A stretch of DNA of 64,000 bases, taken from the NCBI GenBank assembly GCA_021772775.1, contig JAJFLH010000034.1:62001-126000 (forward strand), read 5' to 3'. Within the stretch, counting starts at the first letter, position 1, and every line of letters starts with the position of its first letter. This stretch comes from Mariprofundus sp. (GTDB lineage Bacteria > Pseudomonadota > Zetaproteobacteria > Mariprofundales > Mariprofundaceae). Both the position numbers and the translations under genes were made by a program. A model generated the notes under the pieces. That model had not been told where the DNA came from and ran no database searches. It saw nothing but the letters and a program-made list of their open reading frames with translations. Shown piece after piece: positions 22 to 63,778 of this stretch.

Positions 22-43
22 TTTTATGACCTGGATCACATTT
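22..43 (+). promoter_or_regulatory. CRP-type binding site
   Basis: The core TATGA-N6-TCACA at 25-40 differs by one base from the CRP core TGTGA-N6-TCACA, and A/T runs flank both sides as in strong CRP sites. Its centre (32.5) lies about 40 bp upstream of the start expected from the -10 at 61-66, which is the class II activator position. An FNR-like reading of the same palindrome is poorer. The binding protein is not known from this window. Confidence 0.6.
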
Positions 44-60
44 TCAGCCCTAAAGCCCCC

Positions 61-66
61 TATACT
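61..66 (+). promoter_or_regulatory. sigma-70 -10 element (TATACT)
   Basis: TATACT matches the -10 consensus at five of six positions. No good -35 is seen; the CRP-like site overlaps that region, as expected for an activator-dependent promoter. Transcription would start near 73 and run rightwards into the hairpin region before mutS. Confidence 0.5.
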
Positions 67-72
67 TAGCCC

Positions 73-229
73 ATCTGAAACTACTTAGCAGCAAAGAGCT
101 AAAGTAAAAACGTCATCTACCGATAAATATAGATAACGAAACAGACTGGCCCGGATGAATATGCTATCTCCCCTCCCCCCTCCCTGATGCATGTTCTCCG
201 GGCCTAAGTGTTTCAAATCAACACTTTTT
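73..229 (+). ncRNA. candidate small RNA with a C-rich hairpin loop
   Basis: Between the promoter and mutS lies a strong potential hairpin. GGCCCGGA at 148-155 pairs with TCCGGGCC at 197-204. After one bulged T (156), GAATATGC at 157-164 pairs with GCATGTTC at 189-196 with a single G-U. The 24-nt loop (165-188) is almost all pyrimidine, with C runs of 4, 6 and 3. A second hairpin followed by T residues ends the unit. Known small RNAs with C-rich loops bind Shine-Dalgarno sequences, so that role is an inference here. An alternative is a long structured mutS leader. No ORF with a good start is seen. Confidence 0.5.
206..229 (+). terminator. Rho-independent terminator of the candidate small RNA
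   Basis: AAGTGTT (206-212) and AACACTT (220-226) form a 7-bp stem with a 7-nt loop, and the T run reaches 229. The stem has only two G-C pairs, so it is not strong alone, but it directly follows the larger hairpin at 148-204. Confidence 0.45.
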
Positions 230-61039: not shown

Positions 61040-63778
61040 ATGGTTCATAAGGAGAACTCTTCTTTGAATAGGGACGAAAACGAAGCCATATATGATCTTG
61101 GGCGACTGCAGTCAGCCATATCTTATGCCAATATCGGCGTCTGGGACTGGAATATTCTTACTGGCGAGATCTACTGGTCAGACAAGGTGGCTCCCCTGTT
61201 TGGTTATAAGGAAGGTAGTACCAACACATCATATGAGAGCTTTATGGAAGCCGTTCATCCAGCTGATCGTGAACGGGTTCAGGAAGCCATCAAGCAGTGC
61301 GTAGAAAAGGGTCATGCCTACACCATTGAGCACCGCGTAGTATGGCAGGATAATACTGTCCACTGGGTGCGCGAGTCCGGTAATGTCAATCGAGATAACA
61401 GAGGTAATGCGGTCAATATGCTGGGAACGATCCAGGATATTTCTGAGCAGCGAAGGAGTCTGATTGAACTGAGGCATTCCAAGATCATGCTGGAAGAGCA
61501 GACTAAAAATCTCGCTTATATTGCTGCTGAAGTAGAAAAAAACAGGGGCAAAGCAGAGATGGCCAATCGAGCCAAATCCGACTTCCTTGCCAACATGTCT
61601 CATGAAATTCGCACACCGATGAATACCATCATTGGCATGTCACAGCTGGCTTTAGAAACCAATTTAAACAGTCAACAGCGTAACTATCTAGCGAAAGTAC
61701 ACCGTTCAGCCGAGTCCCTACTCGGTGTTATCAATGATATTCTGGATTTCTCGAAAATTGAGGCTGGCAAACTCGACATAGAGCATATTGACTTCTTTCT
61801 GGATGATGTTTTCGACAATCTCAGCAACTTGATCGGTCTGAGAGCTGAAGAGAAATCGTTGGAATTAATGTATAAAATACCGGCTGACCTCCCCAAAGCT
61901 CTAATCGGTGACCCGATGCGCCTCGGCCAGGTTCTGATCAACCTTGGCAACAACGCCGTCAAGTTTACTGAACAGGGTGAAGTGATCATTGATGTCAAAG
62001 TGATTGAGCAAACCAACACTCAGGTAACACTCCATTTTTCAGTGCGGGATACAGGCATTGGGATGAACCCCAAGCAACAGGCGAAGCTGTTCCACTCTTT
62101 CAGTCAGGCCGATTCATCAACCACCCGTAAATTTGGTGGATCCGGCCTTGGCCTGGCGATATGCAAACAACTCACCAGAATGATGAACGGTGATATCTGG
62201 TTAGATAGCAGCGAAGGCGAAGGGAGTATCTTCCATTTTACGACTCAACTGGGAATACAGCAGAATCAGGATATCCAGACTCATTTGATGCCTAATAACT
62301 TTGCTGGCATGCGTGTTCTGGTGGTGGATGACAACGAGTCAGCCCGGCAAATTCTTGCCTCAATGCTGAGTGCATTCGGCTTGAGTGTAGAACAGGTCGA
62401 CTCTGGGGAGGGCGCATTGGCGCTACTTAGAGCTGCTGATAACTCCACCCCTTACAAGCTGGTATTGCTAGACCGGAAAATGCCCAAGATGGATGGTCTC
62501 GAAACATCACATGCAATCAAACATGATAATCAACTGAATGGAATTCCGGCAATCATCATGATTACCGCCCATGGACAGGAAAGTATTCCCTCTACGACTG
62601 ATCAAACAGTTATCAAGGCCTTGCTAAGCAAACCGTTCACCGCTCCCAATCTATATCATGCCATCATGCGGGCCTTTGGACAGCACCTTGCGGATGAACA
62701 GGTCGGCTTCAACAGCAACGATATTTCTGAGCATATATCCAAACTACGTGGTGCCCGAGTGCTTCTGGTCGATGATAATGAAATAAATCAGGAGCTGGCT
62801 CTGGAGCTGTTGACCAGTAACGGCATTCGTGTTGAAACCGCCAACAATGGTCAGCAAGCTATGGATATGCTGGAGGAGAAGCGTTTCGACGGTGTACTGA
62901 TGGATTGCCAAATGCCAGTGATGGATGGTTTTACTGCTACGCGAAACCTACGTAAACAGCAGCATTGCAAAGGCCTTCCTATACTCGCGTTGACCGCCAA
63001 TGCTATGGCCAGTGATCGCGAAGAGGTTCTCAATGCCGGCATGAACGATCACATTGCCAAACCGATTAATATCAATGATATGTTTCATACAATGGCCAAA
63101 TGGATCACACCATCACATCCTGTTACAGAGACCACACTAGCGGACAAAAATAATTTCATGTCAAAGCTCAAGTCCCCTGAGCTAGCAGGCATTGATGTCG
63201 CTACTGGTCTGGCGATCTGTCAGGGAAACAGTAAACTTTATCACAAGCTGCTGCTTAAATTTTACAACAAGCAAGCTGATGTTATCGAACAATTCCAACA
63301 GGCACGGCTTGAAAAGGATCAGAAAACAGCCCTGCGTATCGTCCATACGCTAAAAAGCGTATCAGGAAATATCGGTGCAAAAGGCCTCTTTAAGGCGGCA
63401 GAAGCACTTGAGCAGGCCTGTAAACCGGAGATCGCCACTGCTGAAGTCAATCGACTTTTGCAGGTGATGGCGAAACAGCTTTCAACTGTGCTGCTTGGTT
63501 TAAAAGAGCTTGATCAAAACAGCCTCCTGGATGCATGTCAGTCGACCGGCATTGCCCCGCAGCAGTTTAAAAGCTTAGCCAGTCAATTGAGACTATTGCT
63601 TGAAGAAGATGACACTGAAGCAATCAAGCTGTTTGAAGCATTGGCGCGTATTCCAGAGATGAAGAGTTATCCCGACCTGATTGACCAGCTATCCAATGCC
63701 ATCAACGGATATGATTATGAAAGGGCAATTGAGTTGTTGGACGCATTAGTGAATCAAAAGTCGGCTTCGCATACATAG
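61040..63778 (+). CDS. hybrid histidine kinase: PAS, kinase, two receivers, HPt
   Basis: A 912-residue soluble phosphorelay kinase. A PAS domain with PAC lies at about 25-140. A coiled linker leads to HisKA with His188 in [11 protein letters not shown], and an ATPase with N, G1, F and G2 boxes ([25 protein letters not shown]). Two receivers follow: VLVVDDN (about 430) and VLLVDDNE (about 573), with phospho-Asps in [12 protein letters not shown] and [12 protein letters not shown]. An HPt domain carries His769 in [15 protein letters not shown] at 61064, with AAGGAG nine bases upstream, is a possible better start. Likely co-transcribed with the hemerythrin gene. Confidence 0.9.

Follow-up and report, generated by a model that had tools for sequence, protein, structure and literature searches.

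A Candidate CRP-Controlled Small RNA with a C-Rich Hairpin Loop Upstream of mutS in Mariprofundus

Introduction

The gap between lspA and mutS lies at the start of a 64,000-nt stretch of Mariprofundus sp. DNA (the window; positions 62001 to 126000 of contig C28 in genome G000). Does this gap encode a regulatory RNA and, if so, what controls that RNA and what might it act upon? An earlier note, made from the sequence of the window, had read the region as a CRP-controlled small RNA; conservation among relatives, compensatory stem changes, the C-rich loop, and the CRP-type site all support that reading.

Results

Layout of the element. mutS begins at 307, and the N-terminal part of its product shares 78% identity with the Mariprofundus micogutta protein; lspA, which we named from its own sequence (L101, 635 to 1111), lies upstream of the window on the minus strand and is divergently oriented. 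On the plus strand, the CRP-type site of the earlier note, TATGACCTGGATCACA (25 to 40), matches TGTGA-N6-TCACA at 9 of 10 positions, and the −10 hexamer TATACT (61 to 66) follows TCACA by 20 nt, which agrees with the class II spacing claimed for it; the site is centered on 32.5, approximately −40.5/−41.5 relative to the predicted start. The region had been described as free of ORFs, and zero plus-strand ORFs of at least 25 amino acids are found inside 89 to 306. The position of the −10 hexamer, the lack of an ORF, the T run, and the fold place a predicted small RNA of ∼155 nt at 73 to 229.

In the computed fold, the 5′ part of this RNA (83 to 138) forms small hairpins at 83 to 105 and 111 to 138, the second of which includes a motif, CCGATA (120 to 125), visible in many homologous sequences. 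Further 3′ is a two-storey hairpin. Its outer helix pairs GAAACA (138 to 143) with UGUUUC (209 to 214) and is conserved in relatives. Its inner hairpin (148 to 204) has a 5′ arm (148 to 164) composed of GGCCCGGA (148 to 155), a bulged U156, and GAAUAUGC (157 to 164), and a 3′ arm (189 to 204) composed of GCAUGUUC (189 to 196) and UCCGGGCC (197 to 204); it is located where the earlier note had put it, with the same 16 bp, one bulge, one G-U pair, and 24-nt loop. This C-rich loop, UAUCUCCCCUCCCCCCUCCCUGAU (165 to 188), is the presumed site of pairing with G-rich mRNA.

Fold and covariation. The fold of 75 to 235 has an energy of −46.8 kcal/mol, compared with −24.2 ± 3.2 kcal/mol for 200 dinucleotide shuffles, none of which was as good (z = −7.1). 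Conservation and covariation had been proposed as the check on the hairpin; we ran it, and the homologues show compensatory changes in the stem while keeping the C-rich loop. Across 14 Mariprofundus sequences, 96.9% of the inner-stem cells are paired, 8 of the 16 pairs show changes on both sides, and the covariation score was equaled by 0 of 500 shuffles; because the homologues share descent, these changes are not independent events. Pairing in the same 14 sequences was halved when the partner strand was slid by one base, and the compensatory changes were also seen with ten Mariprofundus sequences. As for the outer helix, duplexes formed by each homologue's own 5′ and 3′ flanks average −5.9 kcal/mol, versus −4.2 kcal/mol with swapped flanks (p = 0.0006 by permutation).

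The second hairpin of the earlier note fared less uniformly: it is there in the window, as AAGUGUU (206 to 212) and AACACUU (220 to 226) followed by a T run (225 to 229), but none of the relatives that we inspected showed it. Since it also overlaps, and competes with, the outer helix (138 to 143 with 209 to 214), hairpin 206 to 226 may represent either another way of folding or a terminator of local occurrence.

Promoter and activator. The CRP-type site and its class II spacing are conserved in homologues. Of 16 Mariprofundus homologues, 13 have an exact TGA-N6-TCACA 5′ of the stem; the exceptions are G022 and G019, which lack a CRP-type site, and G016, which carries a one-mismatch version. 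Counted on both strands, this motif occurs 18 times in the 4.2 kb upstream of 21 hairpins versus 5 times in 115.7 kb of other DNA from the same loci, a density ∼100-fold higher among sites that, sharing descent, are not independent events. The best −10-like hexamer lies 20 to 22 nt from TCACA in 16 of these 18 sites, and 20 to 22 nt is the class II distance for CRP; since the hexamer was selected as the best match over ten possible positions, the regularity of this gap is suggestive, not proof, of a class II arrangement. The promoter of the element has no −35 hexamer and went unflagged in a simple σ70 scan, which is how a promoter of the class II activator type should behave.

Three CRP/FNR-type proteins score over the Pfam cutoff in G000. 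One of them (L212) has a cyclic-nucleotide cassette, FGEMSLLDEEPRSANV, and a recognition helix, SRETISR, which we take to be close to that of CRP; among curated models it scores best against CRP (E value of 4e-26, below the equivalog cutoff), and, over its full length, its best PDB relatives are CRP/FNR-family regulators. The presence of this CRP-like protein, together with nine class III cyclase domains in the genome, makes control of the small RNA by cAMP-CRP plausible, and we regard control by a CRP-type regulator, in the broader sense, as likely.

Distribution of homologues. Genomes of the same genus carry the region, as judged by blastn. A covariance model built from ten Mariprofundus hairpins (R1) matches most Mariprofundus genomes, with E values of 1e-12 to 1e-24, and matches other genera more weakly. 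In a sample of 299 genomes from the phylum, E values of <1e-12 were confined to Mariprofundus; one genome of the same family scored 1.5e-11, and four belonging to another family (f17) scored 4e-5 to 7e-9. Most of the weak R1 matches are to other RNAs whose loops are C rich. We ruled out a repeat element, as G000 contains only one strong copy. In other Mariprofundaceae, the stems 5′ of mutS differ and the loop is of the same kind (pyrimidine, mostly C); in genera whose stem sequences are unrelated, such as CGGCUUGGGGA...UCCCCAAGCCG, the loop is still C/U. One relative (G024) has a tandem pair of C-rich hairpin RNAs 5′ of mutS, each with a T run (L117, reverse strand, ∼1190 to 1400).

Within 30 homologues, the loop is 16 to 29 nt long and contains 0 to 5 purines. 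It exchanges C and U from one homologue to another and stays almost purine free: 27 of the 30 loops have an uninterrupted C/U core of 12 to 27 nt, and in the other 3, with single A's inside, the core is 7 to 10 nt.

No Rfam 15 family matches the window at gathering score, and relaxing the threshold to an E value of 10 gave nothing credible in positions 1 to 500. At the hairpin of four homologues (L111, L117, L138, and L172), no bacterial Rfam family was found at E values up to 1. Overlap with the Zeta-pan RNA motif was checked through Rfam alone. We found no zetaproteobacterial small RNA in the literature searched.

As judged by comparing sequences, the element upstream of mutS is very likely a real gene for a structured, separately transcribed small RNA.

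Discussion

Proposed function. We propose that a CRP-family activator bound at 25 to 40 would bring RNA polymerase to the −10 hexamer at 61 to 66 in class II fashion, giving a transcript of ∼155 nt whose two-storey hairpin would hold the 24-nt C/U-rich loop single stranded. This loop, without Hfq, would pair with G-rich stretches of the Shine-Dalgarno type (GGAGG or GGGGAGGG) in target mRNAs, and such pairing would block ribosome binding and thereby repress the targets. That mRNAs with such sites would be repressed is what we infer from CyaR, a CRP-dependent small RNA able to act on a Shine-Dalgarno sequence. In sum, the element is probably a CRP-activated, trans-acting, Hfq-free small RNA with a loop that pairs with ribosome-binding sites rich in G; for the anti-Shine-Dalgarno mechanism considered separately, our analysis makes it moderately likely. 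CCUCC is present in 22 of the 30 loops and absent from 8, so a strict anti-Shine-Dalgarno sequence is not universal. Independence from Hfq is the best reading of a six-frame search in which none of 78 genomes of the order, among them G000, had a match above the Pfam cutoff; a very divergent Hfq may escape such a search, for which Escherichia coli, Bacillus subtilis, Caulobacter, and others of the control genomes were positive. A search for targets with GGGGAGGG-N(2,9)-ATG in 23 genomes, with 40 sites read in six, revealed no orthologous gene shared between species.

That null result is also what lends some weight to the strongest of the rival explanations, in which the C-rich loop of the small RNA binds a protein, such as one of the KH type or another with affinity for C, or acts as a sponge, rather than pairing with mRNA. 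The loop keeps its C/U composition more than its exact sequence, which would suit such a role, but two kinds of comparable loop have been described as pairing with mRNA, the C-rich one of RepG (PMC8295292) and the anti-Shine-Dalgarno loops of rhizobial RNAs (PMC3927594). We therefore give protein binding or sponging a minor share of the probability and prefer pairing with ribosome-binding sites.

Relation to mutS. In many Mariprofundus genomes the element lies ∼100 nt upstream of mutS in the same orientation, and this proximity invites the thought that it acts in cis, as a leader or attenuator controlling mutS expression. However, almost every mutS start in Mariprofundus comes after a block of the type CTTAAGCATC...GTGTTACATTGCGGGC-ATG, which in the window reads TTAAGC, 16 nt, TTACAT, 7 nt, ATG (272 to 306). 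The conservation of this block and its position, adjoining the ATG, suggest a promoter with its start at or next to the ATG and, hence, a separate, leaderless mutS transcript. In addition, the hairpin is kept where mutS is not adjacent: it lies ∼1.8 kb upstream of mutS in G002, where a CRP-type site, TTGTGATATCGATCACAT, precedes it; ∼2.6 kb upstream in G052; and at another locus in G028, a genome of another family, where it is preceded by the CRP-type site TGTGACACAGATCACA. A strong T run also ends the hairpin in several genera. Because mutS has its own promoter-like block and the element occurs away from mutS, the element is most likely a transcript separate from mutS; a role solely as mutS leader is disfavored by synteny and by the conserved block, and we consider cis control of mutS unlikely.

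mutS itself differs from its relatives by a one-base frameshift at 1225 to 1242 of the window, which reads RNWMTVH* where L102 has RNWIDRPLTDL; the 3′ part of the gene after the frameshift is the ORF at 1239 to 2903. This is either a true mutator allele or an assembly error. Loss of 4 bp in a repeat was ruled out, as the relatives point to a one-base frameshift.

Terminator-like features. In several genera, a run of 6 to 8 T's lies within a few nucleotides 3′ of the C-rich stem, so that the C-rich hairpin itself appears terminator-like there; several homologues have no clear T run within 30 nt of the stem, and in the window the T run stands after a further hairpin, not directly after the C-rich one. 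The many relatives with T runs, and the C-rich-loop terminator hairpin that also follows 6S RNA in related genomes, might be taken to mean that we are dealing with an ordinary terminator whose loop is C rich by chance. A neutral loop, however, would not remain nearly purine free while the stems diverge; moreover, no upstream gene in the window reads into the hairpin (lspA is divergent), and a conserved activator site stands 5′ of it. An ordinary terminator is about as unlikely as cis control of mutS. Action at the DNA level, as a G-quadruplex, an i-motif, or a protein-binding palindrome, is very improbable: the opposite strand is indeed G rich, but the four-tract G-quadruplex pattern fits only 7 of the 30 loops and fails in 23, the strand 3′ of the promoter is the C-rich one even where synteny is lost, and the stem pairs include G-U.

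Other RNAs with C-rich loops. Hairpins of a similar kind occur elsewhere. Other Mariprofundus genomes have an ar14-like RNA, whose best match to ar14 (RF02344) is below the gathering score, with an E value of 0.0018; the only other R1 match in G000 (C33:125810-125870; L286, ∼1480 to 1600) is likely a copy of it, although that copy itself gives no ar14 match. The C-rich loop of the L286 RNA belongs to a hairpin, TTTGTCCTGTCCGGAG...CTCCGGACAAA, with a strong terminator after it. In several Mariprofundaceae genera, a C-rich-loop terminator hairpin lies directly 3′ of 6S RNA (L182, 1327 to 1570; L192; L193; and L201); the 6S RNA (RF00013) match is over the gathering score in L182 and weaker in the other three. 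The four family f17 genomes (L291 to L294, ∼950 to 1050) have two adjacent C-rich-loop hairpins of their own kind, GGAUAGCGA..UCGCUAUCC and GGCCCGGAAGCG..CGCUUCCGGGCC, with no Rfam match at that place; in L291, the pair has a histidine-kinase-like gene on one side and an entericidin-like gene on the other.

It is tempting to view the RNA upstream of mutS, the ar14-like RNA, and the post-6S terminator as zetaproteobacterial siblings, which would form one chaperone-free system in bacteria that lack Hfq, sensing energy or carbon status through cyclic AMP and competing for G-rich ribosome-binding sites; this larger scheme is speculative. Given that we found no zetaproteobacterial small RNA in the literature searched and no Rfam match, the RNA upstream of mutS would give this class of iron oxidizers its first family of regulatory RNA. 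It would also tie a CRP-type regulator to posttranscriptional control in bacteria where Hfq was not detected, and it offers a clean test of whether C-rich loops of terminators can function with no chaperone to assist pairing.

Comparison with known systems. Three described systems come close. RepG of Helicobacter pylori has a C/U-rich terminator loop whose partner, according to the part of PMC8295292 that describes this loop, is a homopolymeric G-repeat within the leader of tlpB. The window RNA likewise has a C/U-rich loop, in terminator position in several genera; RepG, here likened by description, comes from a distant bacterium, and that part of PMC8295292 mentions no CRP-type site for it. 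The cuckoo RNAs of alphaproteobacteria, SmelA075 and SmelA099, have variable stems that expose conserved C-rich anti-Shine-Dalgarno loops (PMC3927594). Variable stems exposing a C-rich loop are also a feature of the window RNA family, but in cuckoo and ar14 RNAs the hairpins number three or four and CCUCCUCCC is present in each, whereas the RNA of the window shows a single C-rich hairpin, with the loop CUCCCCUCCCCCCUCCCU and no exact CCUCCUCCC. In view of its loops, we take ar14 (RF02344) to be a member of the cuckoo family; it gave no match in positions 1 to 500 of the window at E values up to 10. Finally, CyaR of enterobacteria is a CRP-dependent small RNA that acts on the Shine-Dalgarno sequence of ompX (PMC11795201). 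CRP control and Shine-Dalgarno targeting are the shared traits, both only proposed for the window RNA; CyaR, in contrast, is Hfq dependent, and its loop is not poly(C). The best reading is that the RNA upstream of mutS represents a new family of a known kind, which belongs with none of RepG, cuckoo/ar14, and CyaR.
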